The position numbers were made by a program, and so were the translations under genes. 64,000 nt of DNA. Source: Sedimenticola sp. Its GTDB lineage: Bacteria; Pseudomonadota; Gammaproteobacteria; Chromatiales; Chromatiaceae. Position 1 is the stretch's first letter. The number at the start of each line of letters is the position of its first letter. Of this stretch, positions 17,139-24,119 are shown one piece after another. The stretch lies in NCBI GenBank assembly GCA_026984735.1, contig JALSRN010000079.1, forward strand, positions 62,001 to 126,000, written 5' to 3'. The notes below the pieces were generated by a model. It worked only from the letters and a program-made list of their open reading frames with translations, was not told where the DNA came from and ran no database searches.

Positions 17139-17758
17139 CGTTTTGCCCTCTTCTCTTCCGGTTTGTTCAGCCAGCGATCCAGCACGCTGTGCGCTTCGTC
17201 GATGCCGCTCCGTTTGAGGGCGGAGAAGAGCTGGACGCTAAAATCCCCCTTCATCCCTTCCAGCGCCCTGCGTACCTGGATGAGGGTGGAGGCGGCGGCG
17301 CCGCGTCCCAGCTTGTCGGCCTTGGTGAGCAGAACATGGACCGGAAGCCCTCTATGGGCGGCCCACTCCAGCATCTGCAAATCGAACTCCTTCAGCGGAT
17401 GGCGCACGTCCATGAGCAGGATCAGGCCGCGCAGGCAGCGGCGCTGCTCCAGATAGTCGGCCAGGTTGCGCTGCCACGCCTGCTTGATCTTTACCGACAC
17501 CCGGGCGAATCCGTAGCCGGGTAGATCCACCATGCGGCGTGACTCGTCCAGCGCGAAGAAGTTGATGAGCTGGGTGCGGCCCGGCGTCTTGCTCACCCGG
17601 GTGAGCCCTTTGTGGTCGCAAAGGGCGTTGATGGCCGAGGACTTGCCGGCGTTGGAGCGGCCGGCGAAGGCCACTTCGAAACCTTCGTCGCGCGGGCACT
17701 GGCTCAGCTTCGCCGCGCTGGTGAGGAAACGAGCCTGACGGTAGAAAAGGTCGTTCAT
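17135..17758 (-). CDS. engB: Ribosome biogenesis GTPase EngB/YsxC
   Basis: A 207-residue TrmE-Era-EngA family GTPase. G1 is GRSNAGKSS (residues 33-41), G2 lies in TPGRTQ, G3 is DLPGYGFA at about residue 79, and G4 is TKADKLG at about 147. Length is normal for EngB, which acts in late 50S subunit assembly. Its stop overlaps the GTG of the membrane protein downstream, so the two may be co-translated. The upstream neighbour moaC ends 39 bases before the engB start. Confidence 0.95.
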
Positions 17759-19697: not shown

Positions 19698-20954
19698 TCA
19701 GATCTCGAAGGCGGGCAGCTTCTTCTCCACCGCTGCCAGCTTCAGAGTCACGTATTTGGGCATGCCGTTCTCGTCGTAGGGAGGATAGGCCTCGCCCTGG
19801 ATGAGCGGATAGAGATACTCCTTGCAGGCGTCGGTGATGCCGAAACCGTCGTCGGTGATGAACTCCATGGGCATCATCTTCTCCACGTTGGCCACTTCCG
19901 AGAGCGGGGCCTCGCCGATGCTCCATTTGTAGGGGCTGGAGGACTCGCGCACGATGGTGGGCATGATGGAGTTCTTGCCTTCCAGCGCTTTCTCCACCGC
20001 AGCCTGGCCCAGCGCGTAGGCTTGGTCCACGTCGGCCTTGGAGGCCAGGTGGCGCGCCGCCCGCTGCAGGTAGTCGGCCACCGCCCAGTGGAACTTGTAG
20101 CCCAGGGCGTCCTTGATCATGTTGGCCACCACGGGCGCGGCGCCGCCGAGCTGGGCGTGACCGAAGGCGTCGCGCGTGCCCTGTTCGGCCAGGAAGCGAC
20201 CGTCGGGCCAGTGGCACCCTTCGGAGACGACGATGGTGACATAGCCGAACTTCTCCACTTTGGCCTTCACCGAGGCGAGGAACTTCTCCTGGTCGAACTC
20301 CACTTCGGGGAAGAGCACCACCACGGGGATGCCGTAGTCCTCGATGAGGCCGCCGGCGGCGGCGATCCAGCCGGCGTGGCGCCCCATCACCTCGATGACG
20401 AAGACCTTGGTGGAGGTCTTGGCCATGGAACGCACGTCGAAGCTGGCTTCCAGAGAGGAGACGGCGATGTATTTGGCCACCGAGCCGAAGCCGGGGCAGT
20501 TGTCGGTGATGGGCAGGTCGTTGTCCACCGTCTTGGGCACGTGGATCGCCTGCACGGGGAAGCCCATCTTCTCGGAGAGCTGGGAGACCTTGTAGCAGGT
20601 GTCGGCGGAGTCGCCGCCGCCGTTGTAGAAGAAGTAGCCGATGTCGTGCGCCTTGAACACTTCGATGAGCCGCTCGTATTCGCGCTGGTTCTCCTCCAGG
20701 CTCTTGAGCTTGTAGCGGCAGGAGCCGAAGGCGCCGGACGGCGTGTGCTTCAAAGCGGCGATGGCCTCGTCTGACTCCTGGCTGGTGTCGATGAGGTCTT
20801 CCGTGAGCGCCCCGATGATGCCGTTGCGGCCGGCGTAGACGTTGGCGATCTTGTCCGAGTGGTTGCGGCAGGCTTCGATGACGCCGCAGGCGGAGGCGTT
20901 GATCACGGCGGTGACGCCGCCGGACTGGGCGTAGAAGGCGTTCTTGGCAGTCAT
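19698..20954 (-). CDS. pfp: Diphosphate-dependent 6-phosphofructokinase
   Basis: A 418-residue phosphofructokinase. The site that sets the phosphoryl donor reads NGGGDS (residues 111-116), with Asp where ATP enzymes have Gly, so it uses PPi. PKTVDND (140-146) and MGRHAGW (190-196) are the PPi-PFK catalytic and fructose-6-phosphate motifs. A ribosome site AAAGGAGAT precedes the ATG. The reversible reaction serves both glycolysis and gluconeogenesis; it is common in methanotrophs and other one-carbon or sulfur-oxidising gammaproteobacteria. A hairpin terminator follows directly. Confidence 0.95.
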   Translation of the reverse strand: MTAKNAFYAQSGGVTAVINASACGVIEACRNHSDKIANVYAGRNGIIGALTEDLIDTSQESDEAIAALKHTPSGAFGSCRYKLKSLEENQREYERLIEVFKAHDIGYFFYNGGGDSADTCYKVSQLSEKMGFPVQAIHVPKTVDNDLPITDNCPGFGSVAKYIAVSSLEASFDVRSMAKTSTKVFVIEVMGRHAGWIAAAGGLIEDYGIPVVVLFPEVEFDQEKFLASVKAKVEKFGYVTIVVSEGCHWPDGRFLAEQGTRDAFGHAQLGGAAPVVANMIKDALGYKFHWAVADYLQRAARHLASKADVDQAYALGQAAVEKALEGKNSIMPTIVRESSSPYKWSIGEAPLSEVANVEKMMPMEFITDDGFGITDACKEYLYPLIQGEAYPPYDENGMPKYVTLKLAAVEKKLPAFEI

Positions 20955-21047: not shown

Positions 21048-21395
21048 TCACTTGATGTCTCCCCGCTCGCGGGCCTCGTGGTCCGCCTGGGCCTGCAGCA
21101 GAGAGACCATGCATTCACTCAGGTCGTCGTACTCGTGGACGCCCGTTCCATACTGCTGGTAACCCCGGTAGAAGAATTGGCACCGGTAGCGCCGGTCGCC
21201 GGTCTTGAAAACCACGAAGTTGCACCCTTCGTGGTTCCAATAGACCACGGGACAGGTGGTGAGCTCGCGGTCCGCCGGCGAGAGACGGATCTCGGCGTCG
21301 GCCAGTTCGTAGGGCTTCTCTTCGCCGTAGCGCTCTTTGAGAGTGGTCGTGATGATCCACTCCTCGCTCTTGCCGAAATCGGGAATCGTTGCCAT
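21048..21395 (-). CDS. Conserved-looking hypothetical protein (115 aa)
   Basis: Read from ATG 21395 (MATIPDFGKSEEW); a TTG six codons upstream is possible but less likely. The protein is acidic, soluble and aromatic-rich, with PVVYWNHEGCNFVVFKTGDR in the middle and YRCQFFYRGYQQYGTGVHEY after it, suggesting a small beta-rich fold. Two cysteines (in EGC and YRC) and one late Cys are present without a metal motif. It ends about 90 bases upstream of the pfp start, so it could be co-transcribed with pfp. Family not recognised. Confidence 0.6.
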   Translation of the reverse strand: MATIPDFGKSEEWIITTTLKERYGEEKPYELADAEIRLSPADRELTTCPVVYWNHEGCNFVVFKTGDRRYRCQFFYRGYQQYGTGVHEYDDLSECMVSLLQAQADHEARERGDIK

Positions 21396-21571
21396 GGCTG
21401 TATGGTGGATCAATTCAAAATTCGCAGAAAATCAGACACTTTGGCACGGATTCATTTGACATCCGGGCCTTGGAGCGATTAGTTTATAGCAGGTATGCCT
21501 GCAATCCGGTCAATCTGCCAATTATACAGGAAAACGGTGGAGAGGCCATTTTCGAAAGGGACGGAATAACA

Positions 21572-22831
21572 ATGCGAATCATTCTTATGGGTCCGCCTGG
21601 GTCGGGAAAAGCGACGATCTCCAGGAAAATTGCAGAGAAATATGGCATTCCCACCATCGGCATGGAAGAGGTGGCGGAAGCGCTTTCCGCTCTGGCGAGC
21701 CGCGAAGACGAAGAGGGCCGGATGGCCAGAGACGCCATCGCGGCGGGCCGGGTGTCGGACGAGGTGTGCAACCTGGTGCTCAAGCAAGTGCTCTCGCGAG
21801 ACGACCTGACCCGGGGCTATGTGCTCCTCGGCTACCCCAAGGATGGCGCCCAGGCGGAGGTGCTGGACACGGCGATGCGCCAGGCGGGCCGCCCCTTCGA
21901 TCTGGTGTTGATGATCGACATCGACCGGGACGAGCTGATGGAGCGCCGGGTGGGGCGCATCGATTGCGACAGCTGCGGCGCCCAGTACAACCTCTACGTC
22001 AATCCGCCCATGGTGGAAGGGGTGTGCGACCTTTGCGGCGGCCGTCTCACCCGGCGCCCCCGCGGCTACGAAGAGAACATCTCCAACCAGCTGCGCGAGT
22101 ACGATGTGAACGTGCAGCCCATCCTTGACTATTTCGAGAAGCGGGGCCTCCTCCGCTACGTGGACGGCAACGGCACCGAGGAGGAGTTGTGGCGGAACGT
22201 CCAACGGGTCATCGACTCCGTCGAACCCGCCGAGGTGGAAGAGTCGGTTGGCGCAAAAGGGGGCGGTAAAAAGCCGCCGGCGAAGAAGGCTTCGGGGGAA
22301 AGCGGCTCGTCGAAAAGCGTCAAGAAGGCTTCTGCCGTCAAAGCGGCGAAGGCATCGAAGAAAGCCGCCAAGAAAGCGGCGGCCAAGAAGAAGGTCGTCA
22401 AGAAGGCCGTCAAGAAAAAGGTGGCGAAGAGAGCGGCCAAGAAGGCGGTCAAGAAAGCGGCGAGCAAGAAGGTCGCCGCGAAAAAAGTGGTCAAGAAGAC
22501 GCCGGCTTCCAAGGTGTCCAAGAAGAGGGCGGCGGTCAAGAAGGTCGCCAAAAAGAAAGCGTCCAAGAAGAAGGCCGTCAAGAAAAAGGTGGCGAAGAAG
22601 GCGACCAAGAAGGTGACCAAGAAGGCGACCAAGAAGGCGACCAAGAAGGCGGCCAAGAAGGCGGTCGAGAAAGCAGCGAGCAAGAAGGTCGCCGCGAAAA
22701 AGGTGGTCAAAAAGACGCCGGCTTCCAAGGTGGCCAAGAAGAAGGCGGCGGCCAAGAAGGTCCCCAAAAAGAGTGCGTCCAAGAAGAAATCCACCCCCCG
22801 CAAGGCGGTGAAGAAAAGAGCCGCGAAGTAA
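21572..22831 (+). CDS. Adenylate-kinase-like domain fused to a long histone-H1-like Lys/Ala tail
   Basis: A 419-residue protein starting at ATG 21572. Residues 1-220 follow the adenylate kinase fold: P-loop GPPGSGKAT (7-15), LLGYPKDGAQAEVLD in place of the DGFPRT loop, ERRVGR, and a zinc lid with C132-x2-C135 and C152-x2-C155. The lid ends YEENISNQLREYDVNVQPIL. Some canonical substrate arginines are replaced (FPRT to YPKD; KRL to NQL), so kinase activity is uncertain. Residues of about 228-419 are almost entirely Lys, Ala and Val with KKA and KKV steps, as in eukaryotic H1-like and AlgP-type tails. The tail contains a 72-residue internal duplication. DNA or RNA binding by the tail is inferred. 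Confidence 0.85.
   Translation: MRIILMGPPGSGKATISRKIAEKYGIPTIGMEEVAEALSALASREDEEGRMARDAIAAGRVSDEVCNLVLKQVLSRDDLTRGYVLLGYPKDGAQAEVLDTAMRQAGRPFDLVLMIDIDRDELMERRVGRIDCDSCGAQYNLYVNPPMVEGVCDLCGGRLTRRPRGYEENISNQLREYDVNVQPILDYFEKRGLLRYVDGNGTEEELWRNVQRVIDSVEPAEVEESVGAKGGGKKPPAKKASGESGSSKSVKKASAVKAAKASKKAAKKAAAKKKVVKKAVKKKVAKRAAKKAVKKAASKKVAAKKVVKKTPASKVSKKRAAVKKVAKKKASKKKAVKKKVAKKATKKVTKKATKKATKKAAKKAVEKAASKKVAAKKVVKKTPASKVAKKKAAAKKVPKKSASKKKSTPRKAVKKRAAK
22460..22739 (+). repeat. Long internal direct repeat in the Lys/Ala tail
   Basis: The block encoding ASKKVAAKKVVKKTPASKV occurs at about 22460-22523 and again at about 22676-22739, exactly 216 bases (72 codons) apart, with few differences. Between them AAGAAGGCGACC-type 12-base units recur several times. 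The DNA is therefore prone to slippage and recombination in multiples of three. Confidence 0.85.
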
Positions 22832-22884
22832 AGGTTTCCAGAGCGCTCTGCGAAACCACATTCCGGAGCGGCGACGGAGCGCGG

Positions 22885-22890
22885 TATAAT
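22885..22890 (+). promoter_or_regulatory. Candidate -10 box for apaG
   Basis: A perfect TATAAT lies 7 bases before the apaG ATG. No TTGACA-like -35 is obvious at the right distance. If used, the transcript would start at or within a base or two of the start codon, giving a leaderless message. Confidence 0.4.
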
Positions 22891-22897
22891 TTTTTCT

Positions 22898-23278
22898 ATG
22901 GATACCGACAAGCACGATGTGCGGGTGGTGGTGGAGACCGCCTACCTGCCTGACCAGTCCCGGCCCGAGCGCAACCGCTACGTCTTCGCCTACACCATCA
23001 CCATCTCCAACCGGGGAACCCTGGGCGCGCGGCTGCTCAACCGCCATTGGGTCATCACCGACGCCAACGGTCGGACCCAGGAGGTGCGCGGAGAAGGGGT
23101 GGTGGGCCAGCAGCCCCATCTGGCGCCTGGCGAGAGCTACCGCTACACCAGTGGAACCGCCCTGGAGACGCCGGTGGGCGCCATGGAGGGCGAATACGAA
23201 ATGGTCGATGACGAGGGGCGCCGTTTTCTGGCGCTCATCGAGCCCTTCTCCCTGCGGATGCCCCACACCATAAACTGA
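22898..23278 (+). CDS. apaG: ApaG protein (CorD)
   Basis: A 126-residue protein of normal ApaG length. The immunoglobulin-like beta-sandwich signatures are present: FAYTITISNRGTLGARLLNR, HWVITDANG, EVRGEGVVGQQPHLAPGESY and YRYTSGTALETPVGAMEGEY. The family is linked to divalent-cation and Ap4A biology, but its biochemical role is not settled. It sits one base before apaH, the classic apaG-apaH order. There is no ribosome site but a TATAAT very close to the ATG. Confidence 0.95.
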   Translation: MDTDKHDVRVVVETAYLPDQSRPERNRYVFAYTITISNRGTLGARLLNRHWVITDANGRTQEVRGEGVVGQQPHLAPGESYRYTSGTALETPVGAMEGEYEMVDDEGRRFLALIEPFSLRMPHTIN

Positions 23279-23279
23279 C

Positions 23280-24119
23280 ATGGCCACCTGGGTCATCGGT
23301 GACATCCAGGGGTGTTACGACGAGCTGCGCGCCCTGCTCGACCGGCTCCATTTCGACCCCTCGAAAGACTGCCTCTGGTTCGTCGGCGATCTGGTGAACC
23401 GTGGCCCCCGCTCGCTGGAGACCCTGCGCTTCGTCCGGGGGCTGGGGGAGCTGGCCACGGTGGTGCTGGGAAACCACGATCTGCACCTGTTGGCGCTGGC
23501 CTGCGGCGAGGGAGAGGCGAAGGCGGACGAGGATCTGAAAGAGGTGCTGCGCGCTCCGGATCGCGACGAGCTGATCCATTGGCTGCGCCACCGGCCGCTG
23601 CTGCATCACGATGCCGGCTTGGCGTTCACTCTCATCCACGCCGGCCTGCCGCCGCAGTGGGATCTGTCCACCGCCGTCGCCTGCGCGCGCGAGGTGGAGG
23701 AGGTGCTGCGGAGCGACGCCCACCGCGAATTCTTTCAGGGCATGTACGGCAACAAGCCCAACCGCTGGGATCCGAAACTGAGCGGCATCGACCGCTGGCG
23801 CTTCATCACCAACTGCTTCACCCGTCTCCGCTTCGTCACCCGCAAAGGCAAGCTGAAGCTCAAGCTCAAAGGGCCGCCGGCCGGCCAGAAGAAGAAGTAC
23901 ATTCCCTGGTTCCTGCACCCGGAGCGGCGCACCCGGGGCGAACGGATCGTCTTCGGCCACTGGTCGACTTTGGGATACCACGTGGCGGAGAACACCTGGG
24001 CCATCGATACCGGCTGCCTCTGGGGCGGCAAGCTCACCGCGCTGCGCATCGACCTGCCGGAGCCCGGTCCTCTGCAGATGCCCTGCCCTGGGGCCCAGGA
24101 TCCGCGCAATTTCAGTTGA
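23280..24119 (+). CDS. apaH: Symmetrical bis(5'-nucleosyl)-tetraphosphatase
   Basis: A 279-residue PPP-superfamily phosphoesterase. Metal-site motifs are GDIQGCYDEL (about 7-16), GDLVNRGPRS (about 36-45), LGNHDLHLL (about 62) and the HAGLPPQW and FGHWST histidines. It cleaves Ap4A to two ADP. A short basic insertion (KGKLKLKLKG, near residue 200) is not in the E. coli sequence as I remember it. The ATG follows apaG after one spacer base, so expression is coupled. Confidence 0.95.
   Translation: MATWVIGDIQGCYDELRALLDRLHFDPSKDCLWFVGDLVNRGPRSLETLRFVRGLGELATVVLGNHDLHLLALACGEGEAKADEDLKEVLRAPDRDELIHWLRHRPLLHHDAGLAFTLIHAGLPPQWDLSTAVACAREVEEVLRSDAHREFFQGMYGNKPNRWDPKLSGIDRWRFITNCFTRLRFVTRKGKLKLKLKGPPAGQKKKYIPWFLHPERRTRGERIVFGHWSTLGYHVAENTWAIDTGCLWGGKLTALRIDLPEPGPLQMPCPGAQDPRNFS

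Follow-up and report, generated by a model that had tools for sequence, protein, structure and literature searches.

An adenylate kinase (Adk) sets the adenylate balance of the cell and is a textbook enzyme. Here we analyzed a window of DNA (the whole stretch of 64,000 nucleotides, from a Sedimenticola sp. genome of 2.44 Mb in 101 contigs) in which an Adk-like domain runs on into a long Lys/Ala/Val tail. The locus raises the question of whether this fusion is genuine, which part of it is unusual, and what such a protein may be doing in the cell.

Open reading frame and domain layout

The fusion protein is encoded at 21572-22831 on the forward strand by a single open frame, whose translation gives 419 amino acids and one terminal stop. 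The adenylate kinase-like domain takes residues 1-222 (21572..22237, +), as placed by Pfam and profile matches and by the predicted fold, and adenylate kinase models cover residues 1-216 in the profile search. The protein belongs to Pfam ADK, which it matches over residues 5-192 with 89 bits (gathering cut-off 26.8), and to ADK_lid, matched over residues 129-163 with 48.3 bits (cut-off 26.6). Translation and alignment to E. coli Adk place the P-loop, GPPGSGKA, at 21590..21613 (+); its K13 is kept, and the next residue, G14, has become A in the window protein and S in 10 of the 12 genus rows. The zinc lid at 21956..22060 (+) carries C132, C135, C152 and C155 (translation, Pfam), and a genus signature, RRPRGYEENI.NQLREYDV, stands at residues 161-179 (22052..22108, +), where it spans the positions of R156, D158 and R167. 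The fold predicted for residues 1-223 from a 46-row alignment has a pLDDT of 91.3 and a pTM of 0.83. When the predicted domain was compared with the PDB, the top match was human AK2 (Z 23.5, rmsd 3.2 A, 216 residues aligned) and the best 50 matches were adenylate and UMP/CMP kinases.

The tail, residues 223-419 (22238..22828, +), was delimited by its composition, its charge and its recurrence in the genus. Its 197 residues include 81 Lys, 48 Ala, 24 Val and 17 Ser, while the composition count gave zero for aromatic residues, Leu, Ile, Met, Cys, His, Asn, Gln and Asp; residues 216-419 carry a net charge of +79, the first 215 residues one of -8. H1-like bacterial tails are a compositional class, being long, Lys/Ala-rich, low in complexity and basic, and the tail of the window protein falls within it; the globular winged-helix domain of linker histone H1 is absent from the Pfam matches of the protein (E up to 0.01; six families, all of NMP-kinase or AAA type). 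Inside the tail lie two in-frame copies of a 158-nt direct repeat (22415..22572 and 22631..22788, both +), which are 90% identical, stand 72 codons apart, and differ by 4 synonymous and 9 non-synonymous codon changes. The coordinates, the four zinc ligands and the approximate tail length given in the original prediction agree with the translation and with Pfam.

An antisense open frame at 21479-23305 (-) was rejected as a gene, since it mirrors the Lys-codon repeats of the tail. Genome-wide low complexity was likewise rejected as the source of the tail, because the tail used as a query against its own genome found only itself and one other place, a free-standing Lys-rich ORF. The latter (L246:1501-1782; contig C74 near 17142-17423) encodes about 93 residues and is itself Lys/Ala/Val-rich and H1-like.

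Copies of the fusion within the genus

The fusion protein was found in 12 of the 15 genus genomes, the window's included, and 13 copies were counted in total; one genome (G014) carries two tailed copies (contigs C218 and C258), perhaps through strain mixing in the assembly. It was not found in three genus genomes (G002, G005 and G012), which are 84-89% complete. The other 12 genus copies are 68-83% identical to the window protein over the kinase part. The closest copies in named records stand in four Sedimenticola sp. MAGs (70-83%), in a Gammaproteobacteria bacterium (77%) and in Thiolapillus brandeum (71%); that of the Solemya velum gill symbiont has 40% identity to the window protein.

It had been proposed from the single sequence that no stop separates the two halves, and the frame from the domain into the Lys-rich tail is indeed uninterrupted in all 13 genus copies. 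Two of these copies end at a contig edge (L010/L229 and L014/L228), and in L014/L228 the final 30 or so residues ahead of the contig end depart from the Lys pattern. At least five Lys/Arg stand among the last 15 residues in 72 of the 75 complete tailed homologues, and three of the 75 complete tails shift frame inside the repeat (L151, after a run of N, L184 and L236). The shifts take the Lys codons into an Arg-rich or Glu/Gly-rich reading, and they reflect either assembly error or a hypermutable tract.

Since the same frame recurs in the 13 genus copies and the Lys/Arg frame is kept to the end in 72 of the 75 complete tails, the family as a whole cannot be a product of misassembly, although repeat-associated frame changes, real or erroneous, do occur. 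Long repeats are error-prone, and the three relatives just named do shift frame within theirs, but the notion that misassembly or a frameshift has fused two genes is already refuted by independent copies with an identical frame, 13 in the genus from 12 genomes and others across 40 families, and hardly any weight is left to it. The fusion is confirmed as genuine.

Distribution of tailed adenylate kinases

An alignment of tailed Adks was used as query against 274 genomes of the class, of which 259 matched. The comparison took in 84 class matches (83 fetched stretches and the window's copy), with lower-scoring matches left out, so that the counts are lower bounds, and an Adk was called tailed when its tail had at least 60 residues. 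At least 63 of the 274 sampled class genomes, distributed over 40 family codes, carry a tailed Adk, and 21 of the compared rows are untailed. Another 17 rows, taken from relatives in the genus and the family, brought the full comparison to 101 rows. Over the 75 complete rows the tail length runs from 69 to 324 residues with a median of 195, and the Lys fraction from 0.13 to 0.54, the two lowest values belonging to frame-changed tails. The tail label changes 7 times over the 104 rows of a quick tree, and at least 2 of these changes are forced by supported branches. In four relatives (L189, L190, L160 and L219) the tail closes, as judged by eye, in a charged, coiled-coil-looking segment past the Lys-rich part, unlike the tail of the window protein.

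A second kind of tailed Adk is described by the curated model PRK13808 (NF010381, 335 positions), whose cut-off was passed by 2 of the 120 phylum genomes searched (L249 and L250), which we take to be Bradyrhizobium relatives. Each has a Lys/Ala-rich tail behind its Adk, as the window protein has, but the Adk is a short-lid one without the zinc Cys and with an ordinary P-loop, and the tail is shorter; the window protein reaches 91.3 bits against the PRK13808 cut-off of 426. The presence of a Lys/Ala tail on this short-lid enzyme as well suggests that the architecture arose on two different Adk types.

The tailed Adk is a widespread architecture in the class and the fusion is not unique to the window genome. 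The view that nucleotide kinases carry an H1-like tail only exceptionally is not supported, both for the number of tailed class genomes and for the tails of PRK13808. The tailed form did not turn up in searches of the open PMC literature, subscription papers being outside that scope; one paper that did come up has adenylate kinase in its reference list alone.

The altered kinase half

Residues were compared with E. coli K-12 Adk and are given in E. coli numbering. In that enzyme R36 and R88 bind and grip AMP and R167 contacts phosphates. The alignment of 11 genus rows with it gives R36S, D84L/V, R88K, D158R, D159G and R167Q, the alignment near R36 being less sure by reason of an adjoining 3-residue insertion. 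The position of D33 is E or D in the genus rows, and the same 11 rows retain K13, R119, R123, R156 and the four zinc Cys. Among the residues expected of a curated adk, the P-loop Lys and the lid and catalytic R119, R123 and R156 are thus present, whereas R36, D84, R88 and R167 are absent, their places being taken in the 11 rows by S, by L or V, by K and by Q. The original prediction had seen correctly that substrate-site arginines are altered; the alignment sets S against R36, K against R88 and Q against R167.

The scores follow the same line: the window protein lies below the cut-off of 168 of the curated adk model TIGR01351, with 137.1 bits in the protein search and 139.6 bits in the genome search, and at least one match above this cut-off was found in each of the 80 genomes tested (80/80). 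Two intact Adks are encoded elsewhere in the window genome, one beside htpG and without zinc Cys (L001) and one with a zinc lid (L002), so that the sensor idea does not face the objection that the fusion might be the only adk of its genome.

Compared with the zinc-lid bacterial Adk (Pfam ADK with ADK_lid; TIGR01351), the window protein is alike in its predicted fold, P-loop Lys, zinc Cys and R119/R123/R156, and it differs by the replaced AMP-site residues and R167, by the adk score below cut-off and by the extra tail. The tailed Adks of the class that stand at the same locus beside pfp (for example L165, L167 and L238) share the locus, the zinc lid and the basic tail, but they keep 11 of 11 core residues, unlike the window protein. 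The unusual part is the altered kinase half in this genus and not the fusion, and this half has probably changed its role or its specificity.

Altered cores and additional Adk genes

Scoring covered the 79 tailed rows in which the kinase core is complete (L244, whose kinase domain ends at a contig edge, was dropped), and a row was called altered when at least one of 11 core positions was unlike E. coli, D and E being treated as equivalent at 33 and 159. Genomes with a second Adk supplied 61 of these rows, 28 of them with an altered and 33 with an intact core; the other 18, from genomes where no second Adk was found, included 0 altered cores (Fisher p = 1.4e-4 on the 79 rows, which are related to one another). 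Counted per family code (n=40; a single such row sufficed for a code to count as altered or as multi-Adk), there are 9 altered codes, 22 intact ones with a second Adk and 9 intact ones without it, with Fisher p = 0.09, and a tree-based independent-pair test of the link had no power. The Adk counts come from one search, and other searches differ for some genomes, among them G104 (2 against 1) and G026, G047 and G160 (1 against 2). The tie between an altered core and a second Adk, as drawn from these sequences, is suggestive only. In the 18 of the 79 scored tailed genomes in which the tailed Adk is the only Adk found its site is intact, and the tail, being found on such sole enzymes too, is again not exceptional.

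On the tree the altered label requires at least 4 changes. Among the 28 altered rows, a single change is seen in 7, two changes in 6 and at least three in 15; since just these 15 are so heavily changed and 11 of them are from this genus, strong pseudoenzyme candidates would be confined to this genus and a few others. None of the 21 untailed rows compared has an altered core (11 of 11 residues kept in each), but high scores or long open frames decided which rows were taken, and altered copies without a tail may have been missed.

Locus and neighbours

Divergent from the fusion gene lies pfp (19698..20954, -; translation), the product of which we take to be PPi-dependent 6-phosphofructokinase. 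Of the 63 tailed class rows, 45 have a pfp homologue upstream and in the opposite orientation, against 2 of the 21 untailed rows; one of these 2 has a 44-residue tail, and some tailed loci end at a contig edge before pfp. In 15 of the 21 untailed rows, and in many tailed rows as well, a ppa homologue is found upstream on the other strand. Between pfp and the fusion gene the translation shows a 121-aa ORF (21048..21413, -), and many relatives have a match to it in this position.

Directly downstream of the fusion, at 22898-24119, are apaG-like and apaH-like genes, presumably apaG and apaH (Ap4A hydrolase), and adenylate kinases bind ApnA inhibitors. An alarmone reading of this link was dropped, since the downstream pair was seen in the window genome and not at the other 100 of the 101 loci in the comparison, some of them with little sequence on that side. 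An apaG-like match lies upstream in L235.

PPi-PFK activity was measured in a vent isolate (PMC4136832, a paper that came up under Thiolapillus brandeum), and this makes the pfp neighbourhood metabolically plausible, but the tail is not explained by pfp alone.

Proposed function and alternatives

By descent the protein would be one of the tailed zinc-lid Adks which are widespread in Gammaproteobacteria at this same locus beside pfp. In this genus the kinase half is without the residues expected for binding AMP and for phosphoryl transfer to it. What the ATP side needs (P-loop Lys, lid Arg and zinc lid) is retained, as is the basic tail, and the housekeeping would be left to the two ordinary Adks. 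The polycation tail, probably disordered, would hold the protein on a polyanion, which may be nucleoid DNA in the first place, or else RNA or polyphosphate. The Adk-like domain would bind ATP or a related nucleotide and open or close in response, so that the role would be that of a local nucleotide-binding module and not of an AMP kinase. The predicted ATP binding follows from the retained P-loop and lid, and the predicted loss of ordinary AMP kinase activity from the changed AMP side. Weak NMP kinase activity may persist, since R88K is a mild change, the alignment at R36 is uncertain and the losses are perhaps partly compensated. To a tethered, non-canonical Adk homologue of this kind, ATP-binding, deficient in its AMP site and with its tail on DNA, RNA or polyphosphate, we would give about an even chance. 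The nucleotide-sensor idea of the original prediction survives in this form, with putative binding to DNA or RNA, putative sensing and a possible signalling role.

The putative polyanion tether is drawn by analogy from other Lys-rich proteins. AlgP, PhaF and HupB have Lys-rich tails for which DNA binding is shown or presumed (PMC9239181 and PMC5676037). A survey connects Lys-rich low-complexity regions with DNA-binding proteins (PMC6821194), and the word "adenylate" is absent from the main text of that survey. AlgP and PhaF of Pseudomonas, HupB of mycobacteria and the lysine-repeat TopA of Streptomyces all carry a basic repetitive C-terminal tail on another domain as a DNA or granule tether, and their partner domains differ from Adk. 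The tail of AlgP consists of KPAA repeats, of which the window tail has 0, so it is not of AlgP type. Composition by itself is no proof of DNA binding.

The protein could instead be a phosphotransferase still, whose changed acceptor would be either a nucleoside monophosphate other than AMP or some small phosphate compound, and with a tail that just concentrates it where it is needed. The kept K13, R119, R123 and R156, the intact fold of the prediction and the strong purifying selection described below would suit such an enzyme, and the new invariant residues at acceptor and lid sites would fit an altered pocket. Both arginines with which E. coli Adk grips AMP (R36 and R88) are changed, however, together with R167 and D84, and the neighbourhood suggests no acceptor, apaGH not having been found downstream at the other loci compared, some of them short downstream; a changed acceptor is possible and in our judgement rather doubtful.

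The choice of polyphosphate as the target of the tail would place tailed Adks on polyP granules, like AlgP, and would couple polyP and PPi metabolism to the adenylates. AlgP, with its H1-like tail, localises to polyP granules in Pseudomonas (PMC9239181), the gene stands opposite pfp and, in many relatives, ppa, and the PPi-PFK activity of the isolate in PMC4136832 points the same way. Two PPK2-family matches in the window genome also speak for it, but no PPK1 match was found there, and polyphosphate was accordingly kept as a rival and not taken as the lead reading; the lack of KPAA repeats in the window tail also speaks against it, and the neighbours pfp and ppa use PPi and not polyP. We consider it unlikely.

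Constraint or decay of the kinase domain

The pairwise dN/dS of the genus kinase domain has a median of 0.086 (48 pairs, dS 0.1-1.5), which is higher than the median of 0.049 for pfp (66 pairs). In 12 genus copies 124 of the 218 kinase-domain columns are invariant, and the genus signature, which replaces the canonical D158, D159, N160, T163 and R167, is invariant except for one column. Eighteen sites (16 substituted and 2 inserted) are invariant in 11 genus rows while at least 95% of the 72 intact rows have another residue or a gap, and out of the 63 columns that are at least 95% conserved in the 72 intact rows the genus keeps 32 unchanged. The low dN/dS, the invariant columns and the genus signature sites together indicate that the altered kinase domain is constrained and is not a decaying relic.

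Neutral drift, by which a redundant Adk paralogue would be decaying with a functionless low-complexity expansion for a tail, is very improbable on these grounds. It would account for the spread of tail lengths (69-324 residues over the 75 complete rows), the internal duplication in the window tail, the long branches of several altered rows and the frame shifts inside the tail in three relatives, but it is opposed by a dN/dS of about 0.09 with 124 of 218 columns invariant, by the 72 of 75 complete tails that close in the Lys/Arg frame, and by the Lys/Ala tail on a different Adk type.

Significance

In its widest form, which we offer as speculation and would not expect to hold in full, the account is that Adk gained, across Gammaproteobacteria, an H1-like, polyanion-binding tail and that several lineages, with this genus the furthest, gave up AMP kinase and kept the tail and the ATP-binding lid, which would yield a nucleotide-gated protein associated with the nucleoid or with granules. 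The tailed Adks, along with a branch whose AMP-site residues have been lost, would offer a testable route from energy charge to the nucleoid or to phosphate polymers, and one conserved locus would provide a natural series from an active enzyme to a likely pseudoenzyme. If the account is true, there would be a direct physical link between the cellular ATP level and the chromosome or the phosphate stores.
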